Source: a virus. Taken from it: 64,000 nt of DNA. The position numbers were made by a program, and so were the translations under genes. Positions within the stretch are counted from its first letter, which is position 1; each line of letters begins with the position of its first letter. The notes below the pieces were generated by a model. That model saw nothing but the letters and a program-made list of their open reading frames with translations, was not told the origin of the DNA and ran no database searches. Of the stretch, positions 31,813 to 49,474 are shown in pieces. The DNA lies in the IMG/VR virus record IMGVR_UViG_3300021197_001653, positions 40,435-104,434 of that record; one strand, given 5' to 3'.

Positions 31813-32510
31813 TTTATACAAAAATCTGAACCATTATTTTCTGTTATTATTTCATTAATTTCTTTAAAATGATTACAATCCCACTTATTTATTTTTTTTA
31901 TATTTTGTGGGTTAGATGCTTCTAATATATAATTAGAATCCTCATTTATAAATTGTTTGAAATATTGAGCTTCTTCACCCCATAAACAATATATTATTCC
32001 GGTTCTATTAGTACTTAATGCTTTTATAATTTCTCTCGTAAAGTTTCTCCAATGTAATAAATTAGAGCCACTTTTATCCTTCTCTACAGTCATTGCTGCA
32101 TATAGAGGTAGTACACCTTGGTTTGTCCAATTTTCTAAAGTAGTATCAATATTTAATCTAAAACCATTATATTGAGTTTCCTCAATCGTTTTTTCTATTT
32201 GATATGTTGCATTTTCAAAACCAACAAATATATTATCCCTTTGTGCAAATGGTATCCCTGTATTAACATTATCATTATAAGGTTCTTTTCCTAATATAAC
32301 CACTCTAACTTTATAAAAATTAACCAATTGAAATGGTTTAAATATAACGTTTTTTTTTTGTGGATATAACATTCTAGATTTATAACTTTCATTAAGGAAT
32401 ACCATTAAATTATGCATATAAGTGGATGTTAATAATATATTTAAATAATGAGTCCATTCTTTAAAAATATCTCTATAATCTATGTCTAATTTATAAATAC
32501 TTTTATTCAT
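31806..32510 (-). CDS. Uracil-DNA glycosylase-fold protein with altered active site
   Basis: 234 residues with the layout of family 1 Ung. VVILGKEPYND (70-80) matches the water-activating loop VVILGQDPYH, NWTNQGVLPLYAAMTV (127-142) matches the uracil-recognition strand, a CLWG strand (175-178) follows, and ASNPQNI (198-204) sits where HPSPLS belongs, followed by a C-terminal HFKEIN that matches HFSKTN. Every key residue differs: catalytic Asp to Glu, recognition Asn to Tyr, catalytic His to Asn. It may have lost uracil excision and gained another base or a binding role. It overlaps the amidoligase gene start by one base. Confidence 0.75.
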   Translation of the reverse strand: MNKSIYKLDIDYRDIFKEWTHYLNILLTSTYMHNLMVFLNESYKSRMLYPQKKNVIFKPFQLVNFYKVRVVILGKEPYNDNVNTGIPFAQRDNIFVGFENATYQIEKTIEETQYNGFRLNIDTTLENWTNQGVLPLYAAMTVEKDKSGSNLLHWRNFTREIIKALSTNRTGIIYCLWGEEAQYFKQFINEDSNYILEASNPQNIKKINKWDCNHFKEINEIITENNGSDFCIKW

Positions 32511-34489
32511 TATATTATAGTTCTATTATTATAGTTTTCAACAAATATATTAATTGCTGTTTGTGAGCGAGCATGTGAAGTAGACCATGTTAATATATTA
32601 TCTAAAGTCCTTGTAGCTTCTCTTGAAATAGGTCTATTTAAAGTGAATCTATATATACCACCATTGTTTTCTAACTCATATTCATTTTCCCCTCCACGTA
32701 CAGAACGTAATATAATTCTTCTTCTAGTAGCTCGAGTTGAAGTATTTGTTGGTTCACGCCTACTAGTTCCATAACCACGCGCAGTACCTCTTAGCATTCG
32801 TTGCACCGCTGATGGGTTTTCTGCACCAAATGATTCAAAAGTAAAACTTGGAGGTTCACCTACTAAATCATTTATAACACCTTTTTTTTTAATATAATCA
32901 TTATTTATACCTTTTAAAGTTTTAAGTTCATCCTTAGTATATAATCCCTTATTAATATAAGGTTTTACTTTTTGTAATGAGCTATTACCCCATGGTATAC
33001 GAGATTTATATTTAAAATCATTTTCTTCAGCTATTAAATCTCCAGAAGCTGTTTTTCTAAAAAAATATTTTTTTCTTATATCCATGTAATTAGTAATATC
33101 TCTATATAGACCAGAGCCACCATTTATATTATAAACATTACTAATAATATCATGTAATGATAATGTTGTAAATGTTTGAGGGGTTGTTAATATATCTGTT
33201 TGATGTTTAATTGTAAAATTAACAATACCTGCACAAATATACATATAGTTCATTACTTTATTTATATCAGTAGTAGGTGTATGAATTCTAAATTCAACAG
33301 TTTGTTTATTACCAAATAATAAAGGTATTAAATTAACCCAATAATACCTACTTCTAATATTCCATTTACTTCTTCCTTCTGGGTCAGATGGGTGAGAATG
33401 AACATTTTTTAATTGAGAATCTACATCTGAATAATTTTGACCCATAGATAAATATTTATATAAAATGGAAAAATTTTTACGTATATCATCTACGTTATCC
33501 ATTATTGGGTCCATTAATAAAATTGTAGATTTAACATCTAAAGGTTTAGTATAATGTTTTCTTTTTATACCATAGTTATATTTTTTATGTAAAGGAAACA
33601 TTTCAAAAATATTATCCTGTAAAATATATAACATTTTATATAATGCTAAAAAGAATTTTTCTGTTCTAGGTATATTACCTAAATGTAAATGAAGAGAACA
33701 ATTATTATCATACTCTGTTTTATTATTTAATTCTTCTACACAATCTATAACGGTTTGTAAACCTTTATTACCTTGTAATGGTATTGTAACATACTCTAAA
33801 CCTCTAATACTCCCATCTCTTAAAGGTATTAAACCTAAATTATTAGTTATAGATGGTGATATAGTACCACGCACTGTTTCAAATTCTAAACCAAAAGTTA
33901 AATCCCCTATTAAAGGACCATACTTACTAACATTATTAGTTATAGTAGGTTTATAATTTTGTTTATACATTTTAATATAATCAGTCATTATATTTCGTGA
34001 ATCATAACTTAATCCACGTTTATAATCTTGATTACACTCTCCAATTTTGTAAAATTGAATAGAATCTACTTTGTTTCTATCATAATACATATTGTCATAC
34101 ATACTTATCATAAATCTTGTATTACTTTTCAGTAAATCATCATTTACAATATTATATGTATTTCCGTCATATCTAACTCTAGTATCATAATTGTTGCTAT
34201 CCAACAAAGAAAAAGAACCTAAAATAGGCTCTTGTTCTTCATTAAATGCTACAATACCTTTGATAACATAAACGTTAGCGCTAATAACATATCTTTTTAC
34301 ACTATGATCATATACTAAACGACCACTATTTAATCTAATATGTTTATTTTCTTCTGGTATTAAATAGCAATCTCCAGAATTTTCAATTGTAATATCCCCT
34401 ATTAAATAATAAAGATCTTTTACTTTTTTACATTCTTTTTTACTAACTTCTTTACCAGAAACTGTTGTTACTAATTTTTTCATTATCAT
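32510..34489 (-). CDS. Amidoligase (COOH-NH2 ligase, Amidoligase_2-like) with N-terminal extension
   Basis: 659 residues. The catalytic domain begins near 190: GLEFET (200-205) supplies metal-binding Glu residues, RDGSIRGLEYVT (224-235) a second acidic patch, and CSLHLHLG (264-271) the His-x-His strand; a VEFRIH-type strand follows near 395. This is the glutamine-synthetase-fold amidoligase pattern, ATP-dependent ligation of a carboxylate to an amine. The first 190 residues look like a separate beta-rich domain, and the Arg-rich C-terminal part (RGTARGYGTSRREP, RATRRRIILR) may bind nucleic acid or an acidic target. It is next to a class II amidotransferase, a second amidoligase and an ATP-grasp gene. 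Confidence 0.82.
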   Translation of the reverse strand: MIMKKLVTTVSGKEVSKKECKKVKDLYYLIGDITIENSGDCYLIPEENKHIRLNSGRLVYDHSVKRYVISANVYVIKGIVAFNEEQEPILGSFSLLDSNNYDTRVRYDGNTYNIVNDDLLKSNTRFMISMYDNMYYDRNKVDSIQFYKIGECNQDYKRGLSYDSRNIMTDYIKMYKQNYKPTITNNVSKYGPLIGDLTFGLEFETVRGTISPSITNNLGLIPLRDGSIRGLEYVTIPLQGNKGLQTVIDCVEELNNKTEYDNNCSLHLHLGNIPRTEKFFLALYKMLYILQDNIFEMFPLHKKYNYGIKRKHYTKPLDVKSTILLMDPIMDNVDDIRKNFSILYKYLSMGQNYSDVDSQLKNVHSHPSDPEGRSKWNIRSRYYWVNLIPLLFGNKQTVEFRIHTPTTDINKVMNYMYICAGIVNFTIKHQTDILTTPQTFTTLSLHDIISNVYNINGGSGLYRDITNYMDIRKKYFFRKTASGDLIAEENDFKYKSRIPWGNSSLQKVKPYINKGLYTKDELKTLKGINNDYIKKKGVINDLVGEPPSFTFESFGAENPSAVQRMLRGTARGYGTSRREPTNTSTRATRRRIILRSVRGGENEYELENNGGIYRFTLNRPISREATRTLDNILTWSTSHARSQTAINIFVENYNNRTII

Positions 34490-34497
34490 CTTTATAA

Positions 34498-36366
34498 CTA
34501 ATCTGTTTGTTCTACTCCCATTATTTCTTGAGTCCCTATCATGAAAATATTCAATACTTCAATAGCTTTTTTAGCTTTTGGATTATCTTCAAATTTCTGT
34601 AGTTTTTCTAAATACATAGGTGTAGCTTGGAAAGATTCATTAAATATATTTTCTAATAAATTATCTAATAACTTATCCTGTTCTTTTTTAGTTTTCATTT
34701 TTTCTTCATTGACTATAGATTCCTCAACATTCTTTAATATATTACTATCTTCAAATTTAACGAGATCAATAACTTTAGGATTCTTTTTAGTACGTTGATC
34801 ATTTCCATTTTCGTCAAGAAGATCTTTACATATAGACATGTTAATACAATTACCTTTATCTATAGTATATATTCTATCAGCACCCAATGGTGAAATAGTA
34901 CCATTATATATTTCATTATTATAATATATAAGTTGTTTATTATTAGCTGCATCCATTATATCTATATTTATAACAGGATGTTTAGCACAAGCAGATAAAG
35001 CCATAAAATCAAATTCTCTACCTATTTTTTTCATATCTAAACATGCGTAATAATCAAAAGGTGTTTTAATATGAACACCTTTATGTAAATATTGTATATA
35101 ATCTCTAATACTAACATTAAAAGGATCTCCAAATAATAAAGGTATATAATCTTTTCTTATAAACTCTTTTGAAATTGCTGGAAAATTTTTCTTAGTAAAC
35201 GCCTTATTAATTAATGATTTGAAATACTGTTCAGAAGCAGTATAATCATCACCTAATTTATAGAATCCATAACCTTTAATATAAATAAACATACCATCAA
35301 GAAGAGTACCATTTCTTCTATACCGAAAGTTTTTAAAGACACTACGTTCTTTAATATCTCCAGATTTAAATACAGGTTTTTCTTTATGTATGTTAGATTC
35401 ATTTTTAATCTTAACACTTGAATTTTGAGAGTTTATTTCACTGTCTAAATTCATTTGGTGTTGTGTTCCAGCAGCCTCCATAAGCCTATTATTATGATGA
35501 TTACAATTACGAGGACGCGCATTTCTCCCATAGTTAGTATGTGATCTAGTATTGGGATTAGAGGCATGATTTTGCCAACGCTCCTCTCTTTTAATAACAG
35601 ACGTTGTTGTCTTTTTTATAGTACCGTTTACAACTTTATAAACTCTATTATGAGGAACTGTTTCAATATCTTTTTCTATACCACCTATAGTTATTAAACT
35701 ATCTTTTATTGATGAAATATACATACTGTGTTTATTCTCTTTCCAAATAAATAATGGTCTTTCTTCAAAAACACCGTCCTGTGTATAATTTTTTAATAAT
35801 GATGCTCCGTGATACATATATAATGCATTAGGTTCATTAGTGTTAGTAAACATTAAAGCAGCAGCACCATTATAATCATTTAATGGTTCAAATCCTTTAC
35901 TTTTATAAATACATTCTAATAATAATTCACTATCAATTTTCTCCCTTGTACTATGAACAGTAGTATGTTTATTTTCAACAACTGTTGGTGCACGCAATTC
36001 AACTTTATATTTAGGGGCTAATTCTTTATGATTTAATAATGTTCCATTGTGAACACCAATAAATTCATAACCTTCTTTTCCCCCACCAAAGCCAAAAGGA
36101 TGAGCATTATCTTCGCTTTTACTACCAACACTACTTGCTCTTGTGTGCCCTATTACAACAGGATATTTTTCAGGTAAAGGATAACCTTTATTTACTACAA
36201 AATCTCTATATACTTTGTTTGCATAAGCACCTATATAAACCTCACCGTCAACAGTAACCCCACAAGAGTCAGTTCCACGCTTTTCATTTAATACACCTAG
36301 CATATCAAATTTCATTTTATTAAACTTTTTAGGGTCTTTACCAGCCCATCCGAATATTCCACACAT
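34498..36366 (-). CDS. Class II glutamine amidotransferase with large unknown C-terminal domain
   Basis: 622 residues. It begins MCGIFGWAG, so after Met removal Cys2 is the nucleophile of an Ntn-type glutaminase. KRGTDSCG (29-36), GHTRASSVG (about 73-81) and HNGTLLNH (near 109-116) are the other class II signature loops. The glutaminase releases ammonia from glutamine. The remaining ~370 residues carry no known synthetase domain; the ammonia acceptor is probably one of the neighbouring amidoligases or a novel domain in this chain. It lies 8 nt upstream of the amidoligase gene and 7 nt downstream of the second amidoligase gene. Confidence 0.85.
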   Translation of the reverse strand: MCGIFGWAGKDPKKFNKMKFDMLGVLNEKRGTDSCGVTVDGEVYIGAYANKVYRDFVVNKGYPLPEKYPVVIGHTRASSVGSKSEDNAHPFGFGGGKEGYEFIGVHNGTLLNHKELAPKYKVELRAPTVVENKHTTVHSTREKIDSELLLECIYKSKGFEPLNDYNGAAALMFTNTNEPNALYMYHGASLLKNYTQDGVFEERPLFIWKENKHSMYISSIKDSLITIGGIEKDIETVPHNRVYKVVNGTIKKTTTSVIKREERWQNHASNPNTRSHTNYGRNARPRNCNHHNNRLMEAAGTQHQMNLDSEINSQNSSVKIKNESNIHKEKPVFKSGDIKERSVFKNFRYRRNGTLLDGMFIYIKGYGFYKLGDDYTASEQYFKSLINKAFTKKNFPAISKEFIRKDYIPLLFGDPFNVSIRDYIQYLHKGVHIKTPFDYYACLDMKKIGREFDFMALSACAKHPVINIDIMDAANNKQLIYYNNEIYNGTISPLGADRIYTIDKGNCINMSICKDLLDENGNDQRTKKNPKVIDLVKFEDSNILKNVEESIVNEEKMKTKKEQDKLLDNLLENIFNESFQATPMYLEKLQKFEDNPKAKKAIEVLNIFMIGTQEIMGVEQTD

Positions 36367-36373
36367 GTTTTAA

Positions 36374-37186
36374 TTATTTATTTATTAAACTTTCTTTTTT
36401 GATAATTTCTATTTCTTTTAATAACGATATAGATTCTTCTTTATCATTATTATCAATACAATTTTTTATTCTACTTTCCAATCTAGACAGTATACTGTTT
36501 ACAGTACCTGAATTAACTAATTCAATAGCTTCCATTGTTTTATCAAAGGCCCATTTCATTAACTCGTCACTACCAATCCAGAAATTAGATAATGTTCTAT
36601 ATTCAACACCATATTCTTTTATTCTGAAACAACCAGCTTTACCATACATTTCTCTACGCCTATCATCAGGATCTAATGTGATAGATTCTAAACCTAAAGT
36701 CATGTCCATAGCATATATGATTTTCTCACTAATTTCTAAGTCTGGGTTTTCAAATCCAATATGGATATGACCACCCGCAGTTCTTAAACTACTTTTAGGA
36801 GAAGGCGGGTTATTAGGCTCTTTCAAATATACATTAAAATCTGGGTCACATCCAAACATTTTTGCTTGTTTTGTATTTAAATACTTTTTATCAAGCTCAT
36901 TAGATGCTGATATATCTAATGTACAGTCAAATTGCTTTGCATGTAATGTAAGATAATCTAACACATAATTAATGTTATCTGTAAATTCTAAACGAGTCGC
37001 AGAAGGTGGTATATTAAACTCAACCATTACATTATCTTCTTGAACAGCATGTCCATCTACACTAATTGATTTAGGGGTATGTTTAGTACCTCCTATTAAT
37101 CCTTCAGCAGAGATAATTTCATCACCTCGTTTTAAGAATATTTCTGGGTCACAACCTAATGTAACTTTGTTTACTAATTTTTTCAT
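36374..37186 (-). CDS. phiEco32-type amidoligase (COOH-NH2 ligase type 2)
   Basis: 270 residues. GCDPEIF (11-17), the acidic stretch EDNVMVEFN (50-58), a second FGCDPDFN (111-118) and AGGHIHIG (137-144) are the metal- and ATP-site signatures of the amidoligase family first described in phage phiEco32. It is a different branch from the 659-aa protein downstream. Expected reaction: ATP-dependent formation of an amide or isopeptide bond. Its leader (37187-37215) contains the repeated TTTCACAAAAA tract, and it is followed by the class II amidotransferase after 7 nt. Confidence 0.85.
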   Translation of the reverse strand: MKKLVNKVTLGCDPEIFLKRGDEIISAEGLIGGTKHTPKSISVDGHAVQEDNVMVEFNIPPSATRLEFTDNINYVLDYLTLHAKQFDCTLDISASNELDKKYLNTKQAKMFGCDPDFNVYLKEPNNPPSPKSSLRTAGGHIHIGFENPDLEISEKIIYAMDMTLGLESITLDPDDRRREMYGKAGCFRIKEYGVEYRTLSNFWIGSDELMKWAFDKTMEAIELVNSGTVNSILSRLESRIKNCIDNNDKEESISLLKEIEIIKKESLINK

Positions 37187-37215
37187 TTTTTTTGTGAAAT
37201 TTTTGTGAAAATTTT
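37187..37215 (-). promoter_or_regulatory. Repeated TTTCACAAAAA leader
   Basis: Read on the minus strand, the bases before the phiEco32-type amidoligase ATG contain two tandem copies of TTTCACAAAAA. One more copy, preceded by the same AAAAA, stands just before the ATG at 42397. It could be an A-rich translation enhancer or a protein-binding site; AT-rich chance similarity is possible. Confidence 0.3.
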
Positions 37216-37217
37216 TA

Positions 37218-37940
37218 CTATAATAAATATGATTGTAACAATTTAGTTATAAATGTTACTGTTTCCTCTGGGCAATCATCATGTTCTGGATGACCCTGTA
37301 TACACATTTGTCCTCTGCTAAATAATATTATTTCAGGTTCTAAAAATCCATGTGGTAATTTAACATCTTTATTTGCACCATTTAAATAAACATTACTGTT
37401 AAAAACTTTAGACCATGCTAATAAATCCCAATTACTAGAAGGTACATTAAAAGGAAACATCATTTGATGATGCGTTGATGATATCTCAAAATTTGCAATA
37501 ATATGACTTTCTAACTTAGAACTTATTAAATGTTTTTTTTTATGATTTTCAACATGTTGAATTAATTTACCACCATTCATAACTGTTATAAATTGAGCAC
37601 CTCTACAAATACCTAACATTCTAACACCTGAACCATTAAAAGAATGATATATTCTTTCTTCTTTTTTATCTCTATTAATATCAGTAACAGTATGAGCACC
37701 TTGTTGTTCTCCATATAATTTAGGGTTTACATCAGCACCCCCTGTAAAAACAATAAGATTAAATGCTCTATAAGGCATACCATCACTTGCTTTTTCTTCT
37801 GCTATATATTCAGAAAATGTAGTAACTCTAGTAATTTTATAAATTTTATTTAAAAAATCTATATATGCTTTTGATTCACCATCACTAATTAGAATTTTAA
37901 TTGATTTTTTTTTTCTTGTGATTATTTCTTTCTTACTCAT
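37218..37940 (-). CDS. Class I glutamine amidotransferase-like hydrolase (peptidase C26 type)
   Basis: 240 residues. FTGGADVNP (65-73), the nucleophile elbow GICRGAQ with Cys112, STHHQ (155-159) and the GHPEH dyad (His217, Glu219) form the gamma-glutamyl hydrolase / PuuD pattern. This family cleaves gamma-glutamyl bonds. It overlaps the ATP-grasp gene by 8 nt, so maker and breaker of the same linkage may be co-translated. A second member with an equally complete triad is at 44000. Confidence 0.85.
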   Translation of the reverse strand: MSKKEIITRKKKSIKILISDGESKAYIDFLNKIYKITRVTTFSEYIAEEKASDGMPYRAFNLIVFTGGADVNPKLYGEQQGAHTVTDINRDKKEERIYHSFNGSGVRMLGICRGAQFITVMNGGKLIQHVENHKKKHLISSKLESHIIANFEISSTHHQMMFPFNVPSSNWDLLAWSKVFNSNVYLNGANKDVKLPHGFLEPEIILFSRGQMCIQGHPEHDDCPEETVTFITKLLQSYLL

Positions 37941-38790
37941 TATTAAACTTTTTTAACAACATTTTTGGAATCTCTTCAATATATTTTTGTTTAGTTACAT
38001 CACCAAATGAAGGCGCTGAATTAATTTCAACAATAATAAATTGAGGATCACTACGTAAATTCCCTTCTTTATTTCTAGAGCCCTGGATTCTTAAATCTAC
38101 AGCTCCAAAATCTAAACCTACAGAGTTTAATGCTTTTACTGATTCTTTTACAACTGTTTTCCAATTAGTTGGTCTATCAAAATCAGAGTTACTTTCTAAA
38201 ATCCAAACAGAATTAGAATCATTTCTAAACCATTTAGCATTTTCAGGAGTATCCTTTTTCATCATTTTTCTACAAGTATAAAAACAACCGTCTTTATTTA
38301 CATGCAATCTATATTCTCTGTTATAATTATGAAATTTTTCAAAAACATAATTTGTTAACGTTTTACCTTTACTCCAATTTTCTAAAGATTCAAGGTTATC
38401 GTGTTTTATATTACCTCGTCCTCTACTTCCAAAATTACTTTTTGAAATTATTGGAAAAGGTGTTTTATCAGTACCTACTTGTGATTGTAACTCTTGTACA
38501 ATTTGAGTAATATTATTACCCCTTGTCCATATTGCAGTTACAACTTTATTATCTTTGAAACATTCTTTCATTAATAATTTACTACTACTATTTTTAATAG
38601 CAGTTACGGTATTTAACTCTACTCTTTTACCACCATTATTGATGGTATCAGGTATTTTAGTAGTTGAACCGAATCTAACTACTGATTTAAAAGGTAATAA
38701 GGGCAACTGTTTACCATTTTTACTTCTTAAATCTGAGTGAGAAGGGTGTCTACTTCTAATTTGTGGTCTAAATGCTGTTATTTTTTGCAT
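37933..38790 (-). CDS. ATP-grasp ligase (RimK / phiEco32-like)
   Basis: 285 residues. An N-terminal RFGSTT segment (45-50), the ATP-binding lysine strand ISKSNFGSRGRG (about 115-126), and the metal site VEINSAPSFG (Glu255, Asn257) are typical of RimK-like ATP-grasp enzymes. They activate a carboxylate as acyl phosphate and couple it to an amine, often adding amino acids to protein termini. Relatives occur with amidoligases and amidotransferases in phiEco32-type phages. It overlaps the C26 hydrolase gene by 8 nt and follows the second cyclotransferase-like gene by 5 nt. Confidence 0.85.
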   Translation of the reverse strand: MQKITAFRPQIRSRHPSHSDLRSKNGKQLPLLPFKSVVRFGSTTKIPDTINNGGKRVELNTVTAIKNSSSKLLMKECFKDNKVVTAIWTRGNNITQIVQELQSQVGTDKTPFPIISKSNFGSRGRGNIKHDNLESLENWSKGKTLTNYVFEKFHNYNREYRLHVNKDGCFYTCRKMMKKDTPENAKWFRNDSNSVWILESNSDFDRPTNWKTVVKESVKALNSVGLDFGAVDLRIQGSRNKEGNLRSDPQFIIVEINSAPSFGDVTKQKYIEEIPKMLLKKFNNE

Positions 38791-43999: not shown

Positions 44000-44725
44000 T
44001 TAAGCCTTCACCATTACTTCAATTGGATTTTTAACACCTATTAAATTAATTATTTGGGTTATAGCAAAAGGGCAGTTAAACTCTTCGGGGTGATATTGAA
44101 ATGCTAAAATTGGTAAACTTTCATGTCTGAAAGCTTCAACAATAGTTAATACCTCACCATTTTTTTTAAATTTTTTAGCAACTAAATGTTTATGATCATG
44201 TAATGAATTACAACCTTGATATACAGCAGTGTGACCAATACCAATTAATCCATCTCCTAACTTTTTAACAGCTTGATGATGTATTGTATTAATTTTAATC
44301 TCTTCATTATCTTCTGTAATCATAGTTTGATTAGTAGATACTCTATCATCTCTATCTTGTTGATGACCAATAATATGTTGGTATAATGACCCACCAAACA
44401 TTACATTTAATGATTGCATACCTCTACATATCCCTATAATAGGCTTTTTAGCATCAATAAATGCTTTTGCTATAGTCATGTCCATAAATTCATAATGGGC
44501 ATTAGAACGACCTGTTGCAGGATGAGGTGCCTCCCCATATCTAATAGGGTTTACATCTGCCCCACCAGGTATTAATAATACATCACAAGTATCTACTATT
44601 TCTTTAGGATTATCACTAGGTGTTATTAATCTAGGTATTCCAAAAAGACCTACAAAATTCATATAAGCTGTTGATTGACCTACTTTTCCATTAAAACTGT
44701 CTGCGTAAATTGCTATTATTTTCAT
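44000..44725 (-). CDS. Class I glutamine amidotransferase-like hydrolase (PuuD/C26 type), second copy
   Basis: 241 residues. LIPGGADVNP (51-60), nucleophile GICRGMQ (Cys100), TIHHQ (147-151) and QYHPEEF (His212, Glu214) give a complete catalytic triad. It is closer to bacterial gamma-glutamyl-GABA hydrolases than the copy at 37218. Expected reaction: hydrolysis of gamma-glutamyl amides. It stands about 5 kb from the ligase cluster but in the same direction. Two C26 enzymes in one phage suggest two different substrates. Confidence 0.85.
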   Translation of the reverse strand: MKIIAIYADSFNGKVGQSTAYMNFVGLFGIPRLITPSDNPKEIVDTCDVLLIPGGADVNPIRYGEAPHPATGRSNAHYEFMDMTIAKAFIDAKKPIIGICRGMQSLNVMFGGSLYQHIIGHQQDRDDRVSTNQTMITEDNEEIKINTIHHQAVKKLGDGLIGIGHTAVYQGCNSLHDHKHLVAKKFKKNGEVLTIVEAFRHESLPILAFQYHPEEFNCPFAITQIINLIGVKNPIEVMVKA

Positions 44726-46012: not shown

Positions 46013-47554
46013 TTAATTATTTTTTATTCTATCTCTAATTTCAAAGAGACTTACTTGATTATATAATTGTCCATCTTGGAATATTACTTTAAGTTCACCT
46101 TTAGCTTCAGATTCCCAATCTTGTTCATTTAATAGAACATACTTACCATCTGTTTCAATAACTGATAATAAACCTTTAGCTGATTTCTTAGAACCATCTC
46201 CAGTTTTAGGGTCTTTAAATATAGATTTACCTACTTTGATAATATCTGGCATTCCTGATGAACATACATTTTTAAAACATTCCTTTTTAAATTCTACATA
46301 TGTAGCTTTAAAAGCTTGACCATGGCTATCTCTAGTATTAAATTGATAAGTAAAACTACCAATTCCAGCTACCCAATTAATAGAAGCAAAACCTTTATCC
46401 ATTAATCTTTGGCAGATTTGATTAGCTCTATCATAAGTAATAGCATCACCATATATTAATCCTACATGTTCATCTAAAAGTTTAAAACCTTTTTCTGTTT
46501 CTGTAGTACCAAATATTTCAGATAATATTTCAATAGCACCTTTATGTTCAGGTGTATCAGGTATATTTTTATAATCACCACAAATAATATCTACTGGATT
46601 ACCACTATCAGGTCTAAATACTACTTTACCATTTCTAGCCATAATAGCTTCTTTTCTCTGAGGAACTACTTCTGTTAAAAATTTCCAGAAATCAAATCCA
46701 TCACAAACTATTGAAACAATACCTGTTGGAAACTTTTCTAAAATAGCATCTAAATAAGCTAATTCTTCTCCATCTTTAGGATTAAAATAAGCACATTGAA
46801 CTGAATGTTCTGTTGCAGGGACACTAGTTTGTACTAAATTAAATTTATCCCAATCGTTCTGACCTGAATCATAATAATATTGAGCATCTAAATAAGATGA
46901 AACTGTATCTCCACCACTAAATGATGTATCGTGCCCTAAACCTATTGAACTTGATGCTTCCCAACCAAAGTCTCCTCTGGCACTAAAATCATGTCCTTGA
47001 AATTGAACAAAATCAGTATTACCTACTGTTTTTATTGCATAATCTTCAAATAATAATCTATAATCATTAGCTATAGTAGCTGTAGTAACTTGATGCCATA
47101 TTTCAGATGACATATAAGTTTCTAAGTAATTGGTTAACCAATAACATTTTGGATCAGTATTATACATTGTCATGTATGGTACTCCAAATGGCACTTTAGA
47201 ACCCTCTGGTAAACCTTTGATAACTAATGGTAAATAACCTAATTTATGTAAATAAGATAAATGATCTACAGCATATTCAGCACCAGTGAATGATGTTAAT
47301 TGCTTTTTAATAAAATTCATTACATCATCATGTGGTAAGTCAAAGAAATCTTGAAATTTATCTTTCAATAATCTCACTAGTCTTTGTTGACCAAATGATA
47401 TTACATAATCTTTATTAGGTCCTTTATAATGTTTACAATGTCTTGCTGTTGCATTACTATACACAGTTACTGTATTAGATGGATACATTTGTCTATGAAA
47501 CAATTTATATGCGTCTAATAATAATACTATTAATCTTAAGTGTTCTCTTTTCAT
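46013..47554 (-). CDS. Nicotinamide phosphoribosyltransferase-like enzyme (NAMPT/Namat type)
   Basis: 513 residues, full length for the family. HDFSARG and the loop SFSGGDTVS (about 190-220), TEHSVQ (near 248) with the family His, FRPDSGNPVD (near 319) for the phosphoribosyl group, and a Gly-rich GIGSFTYQ region are all present. Classical NAMPT joins nicotinamide and PRPP to NMN. In the phage NARP1 pathway a NAMPT-like enzyme (Namat) instead joins nicotinamide to ADP-ribose pyrophosphate and gives NAD+ directly. A PRPP-synthetase-like partner is encoded about 1.1 kb upstream in the same operon. Confidence 0.88.
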   Translation of the reverse strand: MKREHLRLIVLLLDAYKLFHRQMYPSNTVTVYSNATARHCKHYKGPNKDYVISFGQQRLVRLLKDKFQDFFDLPHDDVMNFIKKQLTSFTGAEYAVDHLSYLHKLGYLPLVIKGLPEGSKVPFGVPYMTMYNTDPKCYWLTNYLETYMSSEIWHQVTTATIANDYRLLFEDYAIKTVGNTDFVQFQGHDFSARGDFGWEASSSIGLGHDTSFSGGDTVSSYLDAQYYYDSGQNDWDKFNLVQTSVPATEHSVQCAYFNPKDGEELAYLDAILEKFPTGIVSIVCDGFDFWKFLTEVVPQRKEAIMARNGKVVFRPDSGNPVDIICGDYKNIPDTPEHKGAIEILSEIFGTTETEKGFKLLDEHVGLIYGDAITYDRANQICQRLMDKGFASINWVAGIGSFTYQFNTRDSHGQAFKATYVEFKKECFKNVCSSGMPDIIKVGKSIFKDPKTGDGSKKSAKGLLSVIETDGKYVLLNEQDWESEAKGELKVIFQDGQLYNQVSLFEIRDRIKNN

Positions 47555-47555
47555 G

Positions 47556-48452
47556 TTAAAAATTATAAATTAGAAATTCAGATATATGCATTGGTTTCAT
47601 CATTAAATGTTTTACATTCTCTAATGTAGCATGTGTATCATCTATTAATGTTACTTGATGTTTTTTTAATTTGTAAAATTGACGCAAATTTTCAAGCATT
47701 TCTGCTTTATGTCTACCAGAATTTACAAAATGTCTACGATCTTTTGGTATATTATAATGTTTATCTAACCATTTCATTTTTTCAATATAAGAAAATGAAT
47801 TTGGTATAGCTGATAAAATATACAATTTATGTTTTGCTGGGTCTAAAGCATTTAATTTATCTATCACCATTTGTACAGGTGGTAAATATTTAAATAATTG
47901 ACTGTTAACAAAATCTATTTTACCATTTATTTTAGGTAAAGTAGTTAATGCAGCTAATACACCATCCATATCTATAAAAATATGTTCATGTGTAAAAAAT
48001 TCTATAACTGATATTTTATTAACTAAATTAGATAATATTTGAAATTGGGCATTTTCTTTTGCAGATTTTTCTATAATAGCTTCAACAGGAACTTTTCTTT
48101 CCCTAATTGAATTTCTTTTTAAACACACTTCAATAGGTGTTTTAATATGTATTAATTCTACATAATAACCTTTTTCTTGAAGCATTTTTATAATTCTTGT
48201 TGTATAAGAATTATTAATACCTCCACCGTCCATTATCAATTGTATTTTTTCATCTGATAATAAATTCATAACTTTTTCAGCTTTCTTAACACTCCATTCA
48301 TGAAGTAAAAAAGCTTTATTTGGGTTATAATCTTTATGAGATTCCTTATATGCATCTGCTGACACAATCTTATAATCTCTTACATTATCTTCCACATTAA
48401 GCCAGGAACTTTTACCTGCTAATGGAAGACCCATTAAAATTTTTGCTTTCAT
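47556..48452 (-). CDS. Polynucleotide kinase/phosphatase-like protein (P-loop kinase plus HAD)
   Basis: 298 residues in two domains. The N-terminal P-loop is GLPLAGKS (8-15), and Arg-rich ERKVPVEAI (118-126) acts as lid. The C-terminal HAD-type phosphatase has DMDG (161-164), SAIP (near 215) and LIDDTH (near 275-280). Kinase first and HAD second is the order of T4 polynucleotide kinase-phosphatase, used to repair cut tRNA or DNA ends. Alternatively it phosphorylates and dephosphorylates nicotinamide or nucleoside compounds, since it sits between the NAMPT-like and PRPP-synthetase-like genes with only 1 nt spacing to the former. Confidence 0.75.
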   Translation of the reverse strand: MKAKILMGLPLAGKSSWLNVEDNVRDYKIVSADAYKESHKDYNPNKAFLLHEWSVKKAEKVMNLLSDEKIQLIMDGGGINNSYTTRIIKMLQEKGYYVELIHIKTPIEVCLKRNSIRERKVPVEAIIEKSAKENAQFQILSNLVNKISVIEFFTHEHIFIDMDGVLAALTTLPKINGKIDFVNSQLFKYLPPVQMVIDKLNALDPAKHKLYILSAIPNSFSYIEKMKWLDKHYNIPKDRRHFVNSGRHKAEMLENLRQFYKLKKHQVTLIDDTHATLENVKHLMMKPMHISEFLIYNF

Positions 48453-48459
48453 TTTTTAT

Positions 48460-48618
48460 TTATTTTTTAATCCATTTATTAAAAACTACGGGATAATTCT
48501 TAACATTATCAACACTTTTTGGTGTTTTACCACATTTACATTTTGGTATTGACATTGCAAATCGTTCTATTTTTATTATTTGTTTACAACAAGTATATAA
48601 TCTTGGTTTACCATACAT
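48460..48618 (-). CDS. Small Cys-rich (zinc-ribbon-like) protein
   Basis: 52 codons from ATG 48618. Cys10-Cys11 and Cys27-x-Cys29-Gly (YTCC..., PKCKCGK) suggest a minimal metal-binding knuckle, with a basic tail ending KWIKK. It occupies the gap between two long genes, starting 1 nt after the PRPP-synthetase-like stop and ending 7 nt before the kinase gene. It may be an RNA- or protein-binding helper. Confidence 0.5.
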   Translation of the reverse strand: MYGKPRLYTCCKQIIKIERFAMSIPKCKCGKTPKSVDNVKNYPVVFNKWIKK

Positions 48619-48619
48619 A

Positions 48620-49474
48620 TTAAAACATTTTTATAATTTCTAAATTTTTAGGCATACCTTTAATTATATCAGAACCACCTTTTTCTCTAACTTCTTGATA
48701 ATGATAAGTATCAAATTTACTATTAGTTGTAAATACTTTATCAAAATAATTAGTAACTGGATCATTACCTAAATCTTGTACAGTCATATGACTTACAGCT
48801 AAATAGAGTTTGCCCACGTTACAATCTTTTAACATAGTAGCTAATCCTTTAAAAGTACCACCATATACAGATATATCATCTATAATAAGGATATCTTTAC
48901 CTCCAAAATTAATTCTTGGTAAATTTTGACTTAATTTAGTTTTACCATCTTTATCATAAGTACGTGACTTACTTGCAGAAGCTGTTTCCCCCTTCCAATC
49001 TAACTTTTCACAAAGTTTCATTAAAGGTTTAAATCCACCCGCATCAGAAGACATTAATATTAAACTTTCTACAAAATCTTTTTTTGAACCTTTAATATCT
49101 TTAGCACGTTTAATCATTACTCTTTTAATAAAATCACTGTTATCAATAATCTCTACATTATCCATCATAGCTTCTACTACTTCAGGATTATGTGGATGAA
49201 ATATCTTGAAATTAGCGTTTATCCCATTAAGAAATTTACATACTAATTTTAAACCACTTGATTCTCCTGTATTAAATCTTCTATCTGCTTGAGCATCTAA
49301 TAAATTTGGTATGATTATAGTAGGTTTATTTTTATGTACATTCCAATAAGCATCCACTGCTTGATTTAAGTGCCATAAACTTTCATAACCATTTATTCTA
49401 AATGAATTATTATGTAATCCAACAGATATATTATTTACATAACTACTCCCATCTGGGTATTTGTTTATTTCCAT
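48620..49474 (-). CDS. PRPP-synthetase-like enzyme (candidate Adps of a NARP1 pathway)
   Basis: 284 residues. IPNLLDAQADRRF (55-67) matches the PYxPxxRQDR loop region, FHPHNPEVVEAM (93-104) the pyrophosphate-transfer segment, and DILIIDDISVYGGTFKG (about 195-211) the ribose-phosphate loop. Bacterial PRPP synthetases (about 315 aa) are longer. In NARP1-encoding phages the enzyme of this annotation, Adps, pyrophosphorylates ADP-ribose made by NAD+-destroying defences. With the NAMPT-like gene it could regenerate NAD+. The alternative is plain PRPP supply for NMN synthesis. Confidence 0.82.
   Translation of the reverse strand: MEINKYPDGSSYVNNISVGLHNNSFRINGYESLWHLNQAVDAYWNVHKNKPTIIIPNLLDAQADRRFNTGESSGLKLVCKFLNGINANFKIFHPHNPEVVEAMMDNVEIIDNSDFIKRVMIKRAKDIKGSKKDFVESLILMSSDAGGFKPLMKLCEKLDWKGETASASKSRTYDKDGKTKLSQNLPRINFGGKDILIIDDISVYGGTFKGLATMLKDCNVGKLYLAVSHMTVQDLGNDPVTNYFDKVFTTNSKFDTYHYQEVREKGGSDIIKGMPKNLEIIKMF

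Follow-up and report, generated by a model that had tools for sequence, protein, structure and literature searches.

A probable NARP1 pathway with an intervening kinase-phosphatase gene in a Crassvirales phage

Organization of the locus

The window analysed here is a stretch of 64,000 nucleotides (nt), positions 40435-104434 of the 104,434-bp IMG/VR record IMGVR_UViG_3300021197_001653. At positions 46013-49474 its minus strand carries a pair of genes, for proteins of 284 and 513 amino acids (aa), that very probably belongs to NARP1, a phage pathway that restores NAD+ with two enzymes, Adps and Namat. In the direction of transcription, from 49474 to 46013, there are four open reading frames (ORFs). 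The candidate for Adps (ADP-ribose pyrophosphate synthetase), of 284 aa (48620..49474), is followed by an ORF of 52 aa (48460..48618) that matches no Pfam family, by a gene of 298 aa (47556..48452) for an apparent N-terminal P-loop kinase fused to a C-terminal HAD-like phosphatase, and by the Namat (nicotinamide ADP-ribosyltransferase) candidate of 513 aa (46013..47554). The ORFs of 284 and 513 aa both start with ATG. The four ORFs are spaced by 1, 7 and 1 nt, and the stretch thus reads as one operon. A promoter scan gave 35 matches, no excess over the 39.7 ± 6.6 found in shuffled sequences.

The initial annotation had placed a gene resembling phosphoribosyl pyrophosphate (PRPP) synthetase and a gene resembling nicotinamide phosphoribosyltransferase (Nampt) in one operon. 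Both genes are confirmed by the ORFs and their PHROG matches, and the common strand and the short spacings agree with an operon. The two genes are not adjacent, however; they are 1065 nt apart, with the 52-aa and 298-aa ORFs between them, and the kinase-phosphatase had been overlooked.

The 513-aa protein

The Namat candidate matches phrog_448 (nicotinamide phosphoribosyl transferase) with an E-value of 2e-157 and NCBIfam PRK09198 with 441.7 bits, exceeding the cut-off of 405. The Adps candidate matches phrog_619 (ribose-phosphate pyrophosphokinase) with an E-value of 5e-31. Family matches of this strength are far beyond chance. The closest solved chains to the Namat candidate are those of SPbetaL1 Namat (9W5X and 9W5W, E 7e-119; 46.7% identity over 473 aligned residues), followed by 9KE8 (E 2e-95) and human Nampt (e.g. 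6E68, E 5e-50).

PMC12774641 lists which residues of SPbetaL1 Namat contact NAD+ and defines a signature to tell Namat from Nampt, GSX-Phi-X-Phi-X-Phi-TRD with aromatic residues at positions 3 and 7. The sequence GSFTYQFNTRD in the selectivity-clamp helix of the Namat candidate (residues 399-409; 46328..46360, minus strand) conforms to this signature, and 18 of the 20 NAD+ contacts are identical in the two proteins. The remaining two are clamp residues: Arg40 of SPbetaL1 Namat aligns with Lys41 in the clamp loop RHCKHY (47426..47443, minus strand), and Tyr396 is replaced by Phe405. Where the clamp loop starts its pair of positions with Lys or Tyr, PMC12774641 assigns stacking to the residue that follows; His42 could take this role here.

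The signature was also inspected in 108 loci that encode Namat or Nampt, after removal of five duplicates (L002, L027, L028, L036 and L083). The form used was relaxed: it begins with G[SA], ends with [TS]RD and allows one residue of slack. The sample is biased, as most loci come from the 80 best hits of a Namat-type alignment and the Nampt references represent the low-identity end of the matches. The relaxed signature with Phe or Tyr at position 3 is present in all 98 Adps-linked homologues (93 distinct, the others being near copies); position 7 is Phe or Tyr in 81 of them, His in seven, Met in seven and Cys in three. Ten loci have no Adps: six of these have the signature (four on contigs shorter than 7 kb), and the other four are phage Nampt references, none of which has it. 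Phage Nampts without a linked Adps, of NARP2-like or salvage type (D484, PMBT1, Karma and L9-6), share the superfamily and the catalytic core with the Namat candidate but have a GGG-type motif without the aromatic clamp. In Karma a cytidyltransferase gene lies beside Nampt and in L9-6 a NadM gene is found about 4.7 kb from it; no such gene was seen near Nampt in D484 and PMBT1.

A maximum-likelihood tree was calculated from 103 proteins, including the DyoEdafos Namat and three added PDB chains, with 13 duplicate or short rows omitted (quick search, long branches flagged). It contains chain 7YQO, which we take to be Xanthomonas campestris Nampt. All five Nampt references fall on one side of a branch with SH-aLRT support of 100. 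The Namat candidate is on the other side together with SPbetaL1 Namat, adjoining a protein of viral contig L033. Scans of viral contigs with a single protein as query found no relatives of the Namat candidate or the kinase-phosphatase and two of the Adps candidate; alignment-based scans found more for Namat and Adps and, for the kinase-phosphatase, contig L116.

The 284-aa protein

The Adps candidate falls far short of the NCBIfam cut-offs for PRPP synthetase (Prs), scoring for example 54.6 bits where TIGR01251 requires 113, and the phage proteins among the matches listed are 25-31% identical to it. In viral contigs it has relatives in 10 loci, nine at 55-67% and one at 34% identity. The AlphaFold2 model, built from a 40-row alignment, has a mean local confidence (pLDDT) of 92.8. 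The 50 PDB matches listed for it are all PRPP synthetases, with template-modelling scores (normalized to the query) of 0.65-0.72. We are confident from this model that the protein adopts the PRPP-synthetase fold; the fold does not tell the substrate. Residues D64, H95, D144, K169, R171, D199 and D200, presumably the catalytic and ligand residues of Prs, are among those invariant in 40 Adps-like rows of our own selection.

In the structural alignment the listed PRPP synthetases share only 15-20% of residues with the Adps candidate, and this divergence would allow the enzyme to act on some phosphorylated sugar other than ADP-ribose or ribose-5-phosphate. Such a substrate is very improbable in view of the invariant residues of Prs chemistry and the recurrent linkage to Namat.

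The TGGT loop of Prs holds the 5-phosphate of ribose. It reads DDMIDTGGTL in E. coli Prs and DDIISTGGT in PDB chains 4TWB, 1U9Y and 3LPN. The corresponding loop of the Adps candidate, D199-F208, is DDISVYGGTF (48851..48880, minus strand, computed from the residue numbers). TGGT is found in none of 90 Namat-linked Adps proteins (longer than 200 aa, 10 duplicate loci dropped, a few near copies remaining), and in 89 of the 90 a Phe follows the Thr or Ser of the loop. The missing TGGT loop fits the use of ADP-ribose rather than ribose-5-phosphate, although this is only suggestive. No Adps structure has been published according to PMC12774641.

In the Adps tree, the Prs references form one clade (support 100/99, branch length 1.25), and the protein of the window lies far from them in another clade (100/100), which consists of 14 rows, all Namat-linked genes.

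As a separate observation, the Adps gene of one locus (L112:7254-8894) is split into ORFs of 156 and 150 aa, with a third ORF between them that resembles a homing endonuclease by eye, as if interrupted by an intron or intein.

NAD+ restoration and ordinary salvage

From these features we infer the substrates and activities of both enzymes. A host defence NADase of the TIR, SIR2 or SEFIR type would release ADP-ribose and nicotinamide from NAD+. With ATP, the 284-aa enzyme would pyrophosphorylate ADP-ribose to ADP-ribose pyrophosphate (ADPR-PP), from which the 513-aa enzyme would form NAD+ and pyrophosphate with nicotinamide, no nicotinamide mononucleotide (NMN) adenylyltransferase being required. 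By analogy, an anti-defence role of the pair is likely. The assignment to NARP1 made in the initial annotation is supported at the sequence level by the Namat signature, the NAD+ contacts, the trees and the Adps loop.

Ordinary salvage is the unlikely alternative. A true PRPP synthetase and a true Nampt would then produce NMN, and an NMN adenylyltransferase of the host would complete NAD+. Both proteins do belong to the PRPP synthetase and Nampt superfamilies, and cells have enzymes of the NMN adenylyltransferase superfamily (PF01467 was positive in 14 of 14 control genomes). Furthermore, SPbetaL1 Namat retains NMN synthesis from PRPP. The Namat-type clamp residues and signature of the 513-aa protein, its position apart from Nampt in the tree and the replaced phosphate loop of the 284-aa protein argue against salvage, as does the lack of an Adps homologue in the approximately 11-kb loci of the four phage Nampt references. 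That lytic phages gain little from salvage, as had been put forward initially, is an argument and not evidence.

An NMN adenylyltransferase had been reported absent from the window, which can be extended to the whole 104,434-bp record: neither PF01467 nor a phage NadM protein as query gave a match. The NadM query recovered its own sequence and a portion of the Karma gene but not the annotated enzyme of an Acinetobacter record. Of 16 phage records tested, three were positive with PF01467; two of these, the contigs of L031 and L116, have NARP1-like loci. The NadM annotated in Aeromonas phage L9-6 was missed by PF01467. Because of this miss and a possibly incomplete record, the negative result is only moderate.

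Several observations weigh against the assignment to NARP1. Two clamp residues differ from SPbetaL1 Namat, as described above. SPbetaL1 Namat also makes NMN from PRPP, with about half the activity of human Nampt according to PMC12774641; hence the 513-aa enzyme may use PRPP as well. PDB entry 9KE8, labelled Nampt, lies on the Namat side of the tree, yet its motif GAQTYQRNTRD lacks the aromatic clamp. The loop change in Adps is a signature of our own, derived from genes chosen for their nearness to Namat. Finally, the DyoEdafos Adps, for which activity is published, adjoins Prs in the tree (86/87, long branches). The tree therefore does not establish Adps as a whole as one clade apart from Prs, and the evidence from it is weaker than that for Namat. 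The initial annotation had named grouping with true PRPP synthetase and Nampt as an outcome that would speak against its reading; by sequence, neither protein of the pair groups in this way.

The operon of SPbetaL1 is the nearest known system, judged on Namat. Adps and Namat are encoded in a single operon there too (PMC12774641), and the clamp signature is the same. The locus of the window differs in the additional genes of 52 and 298 aa that separate Adps from Namat, in Lys at the clamp-loop position, in Phe in place of Tyr396 and in the Crassvirales background of the phage.

The kinase-phosphatase between Adps and Namat

The N-terminal half of the 298-aa protein matches Zeta_toxin and AAA_33 above the Pfam cut-offs, and the protein matches phrog_505 (polynucleotide kinase) with an E-value of 3.5e-13. 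For the C-terminal half, the match to NT5C is below the cut-off (E 6.5e-4) and HAD motifs are present. The Walker A motif GLPLAGKS (48408..48431, minus strand) appears as GLPxxGKS in four of five aligned rows, that of the window included, and as ALPGAGKT in the fifth. HAD motif I, DMDG (residues 161-164; 47961..47972, minus strand), is found in all five. The AlphaFold2 model, from a two-row alignment, is of low confidence (pLDDT 43.7).

Relatives of nearly full length are encoded in viral contig L116, Leptolyngbya phage Lbo-JY46 and 15 Prevotella Lak records, two of which (Lak-A2 and Lak-B2) were examined; an alignment-based scan of genome contigs found none. Contig L116 (173 kb) has the same order Adps, kinase-phosphatase, Namat, with an overlap of 8 bases and a gap of 6 bases. 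In Lbo-JY46 the kinase-phosphatase is 1.4 kb upstream of Namat, separated from it by four annotated genes; Adps is downstream. In both Lak records it follows one gene after a Namat-like gene, and Adps is located elsewhere. Identities between the window and Lbo-JY46 are 35.3% for the kinase-phosphatase, 32.6% for Adps and 44.4% for Namat. Between the window and L116 they are 58.7%, 29.9% and 46.3%, respectively. As the kinase-phosphatase is the most similar of the three in L116, the simplest reading is that this gene entered the same slot independently of Adps and Namat. In 10 NARP1 contigs with a close Adps, some of them perhaps fragments, the kinase-phosphatase is absent save for one weak match.

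Its recurrent position makes it about even, with the balance slightly in favour, that the kinase-phosphatase is an accessory of the NARP1 pathway. It might supply or recycle ADP-ribose, or remove phosphate by-products. It is somewhat less probable, and still a serious alternative, that only the pair is NARP1 and the middle gene merely shares its operon, healing the ends of host tRNA cut by anticodon nucleases in the manner of the T4 polynucleotide kinase-phosphatase (Pnkp). In T4 Pnkp a kinase domain precedes the HAD phosphatase, and the 298-aa protein has the same order. Its similarity to the phage polynucleotide kinase profile phrog_505, which would fit RNA repair, is modest. Weak relatives of the kinase are found elsewhere in five NARP1 loci (L013, L072, L084, L088 and L113), and NARP1 of DyoEdafos has a polynucleotide kinase and an RNA ligase in its neighbourhood. 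Streptomyces phage TunaTartare encodes a weakly similar kinase near an RNA ligase and tRNAs, with no Namat within 6 kb. Against RNA repair, the 298-aa gene adjoins Namat and no RNA ligase was found in the record, neither with PF09414 (control positive in 6 of 14) nor with PF09511, a search without a working control. Furthermore, Namat is encoded within 1.4 kb in all four lineages found with the full-length gene (the window, L116, Lbo-JY46 and Lak, the last from 2 of 15 records), and the gene appears to have entered the shared slot of the window and L116 by itself.

Mycobacterium phage DyoEdafos provides a precedent for an accessory gene between Adps and Namat. According to a preprint (PMC13232231), its Adps and Namat rebuild NAD+ in vitro and its middle enzyme makes ADP-ribose from cyclic ADP-ribose (cADPR) signals, thus feeding NARP1. 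The DyoEdafos Adps was included in our tree, as was its Namat. The middle gene there is a glycosidase with an RyR domain (RyDEP), in contrast to the kinase-phosphatase of the window, and a separate polynucleotide kinase follows Namat. RyR (PF02026) was not found in the record of the window, a search without a working control. In Pseudomonas phage Adele a neighbouring gene is likewise proposed by the authors to release ADP-ribose for NARP1; it encodes a macro domain and lies downstream, and the accessible part of the article names no kinase-HAD fusion (PMC12846349).

The slot in other phages

Among the 90 loci with linked genes, 18 have a small HAD-like gene in the slot between Adps and Namat, eight a macro domain, seven a Nuc_deoxyri_tr2-like gene, two DUF1937, two a kinase-HAD fusion (window included) and six HNH. 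Single loci have a NADAR domain (L048) or RyR (DyoEdafos). Adps and Namat are 250 bp or more apart in 54 loci, and 33 of these have a slot family other than HNH. Mere mobile insertion was considered as an explanation of the slot genes; HNH in 6 of 90 loci indicates that some insertions are mobile.

The small slot proteins are called HAD-like on visual inspection, for the DxDxT, T, K and DD motifs that they show. In five that were scanned, all Pfam matches are under the cut-off (best E-values 0.045 for PF00702 and 0.0064 for PF08282). Their median pairwise identity is 32%. The order is Adps-HAD-Namat in 13 of the 18 loci and Namat-HAD-Adps in five. Between Adps and Namat lie 19 of 21 members of the family in the loci (for one of these, the contig ends within the neighbouring Adps), with only two further homologues elsewhere, compared with 27 of 231 background ORFs (binomial p 3e-16); this p-value is not a fair test, since the family was defined from the same 19 slot ORFs and relatedness was ignored. 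The three genomes examined outside the family definition provide the fairer test, and a HAD gene was found each time: cr111_1 and cr126_1 both have the order Namat-HAD-Adps, and in Lak-A2 the HAD gene directly precedes Adps.

We infer that NARP1 often has a third enzyme that processes phosphate or ADP-ribose. More specifically, NARP1 may often be a three-step pathway in which a slot phosphatase, small and HAD-like in most cases and a kinase-HAD fusion here, keeps ADP-ribose available; this idea is tentative, its chances being a little under even. Such a phosphatase might strip phosphate from 2'-phospho-ADP-ribose, which would arise when the same defence NADases cut NADP+. It might recycle the ADP-ribose-1''-phosphate and cyclic phosphate from the decay of unstable ADPR-PP, or remove pyrophosphate and thus pull the Namat reaction. 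The macro-domain, NADAR, RyR and deoxyribosyltransferase-like genes would be alternative suppliers of ADP-ribose. Two points count against a common third enzyme. Alignment of the HAD half of the window protein with the slot HAD family by hhalign gave a probability of only 9%; they share motifs and position, and this result does not establish common descent within the HAD superfamily. In addition, position alone is no proof of the function of a slot gene.

The macro-domain slot genes occur in L011, L016, L041, L042, L049, L073, L088 and L096, and six more genes of the macro family are found outside the slot in these loci and others, several of them immediately next to Namat. Slot genes resembling nucleoside 2-deoxyribosyltransferase (PF15891) occur in L030, L041, L042, L045, L091, L098 and L104, and those with DUF1937 in L068 and L078; both kinds are possible N-glycosidases for ADP-ribose compounds. 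The NADAR gene (L048:3734-4207; PF08719, E 3e-48) lies between Adps and Namat. NADAR enzymes take ADP-ribose off nucleic acids. In Prevotella phage Lak-A2 the HAD-Adps pair (L129:5926-7259) is far from the cluster of Namat, an intervening gene and the kinase-HAD fusion, so that both kinds of phosphatase and a split NARP1 are present in one genome. In a close relative (L026:5347-7783), the slot contains an ORF resembling a homing endonuclease by eye and a calcineurin-like phosphoesterase (PF00149), as well as a second ORF that resembles such a phosphoesterase by eye and has no Pfam match.

Occurrence in Crassvirales

The record also contains terminase and portal genes outside the window, named so by PHROGs. 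Among the matches listed, the portal is 56.7% identical to that of Cellulophaga phage phi14:2, which is classified as Crassvirales, Steigviridae (121 records match), and the terminase is 42% identical to that of the uncultured phage cr111_1 (149 records match). The best matches listed are all crAss-like, and on these the record is assigned to a Crassvirales phage with crAss-like terminase and portal. The host is probably a Bacteroidetes bacterium.

A Namat homologue is encoded in two of five named Crassvirales genomes, those of cr111_1 and cr126_1 (crAss-like phages from human faeces), and was not found in the other three (phi14:2, cr108_1 and PhiCrAssBcn22). The portal of the window phage has a match in 8 of 22 NARP1-like records tested, some of these weak; many of the other records are short. 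The pathway thus recurs in Crassvirales. The literature searched, which left most subscription papers outside, contained no report of NARP1 in crAss-like phages, nor of a HAD or kinase-phosphatase gene in NARP1 operons, HAD not having been searched by name.

With this pair, the range of an anti-defence pathway described only recently widens to crAss-like phages, a very common group in the human gut. As cr111_1 and cr126_1 carry NARP1, Bacteroidetes systems are suitable for its study. The middle gene is of greater importance than the pair: should a dedicated third enzyme occupy the slot, two-enzyme models and reconstitutions of NARP1 miss a step, and which metabolite limits the recovery of NAD+ becomes a testable question.

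Other genes of the record

A gene for a GroEL-like chaperonin (phrog_5725, E 2.9e-101; L005:12155-13582, same record, outside the window) lies directly before the crAss-like terminase. On the minus strand of the window, positions 32510-38790 and 44000-44725 contain a cluster of genes for an amidoligase, a glutamine amidotransferase-like protein, a COOH.NH2 ligase and an S6-glutaminyl-transferase-like protein. A peptidase C26 gene is found near this cluster, which perhaps represents a pathway for peptide or cell-wall modification.

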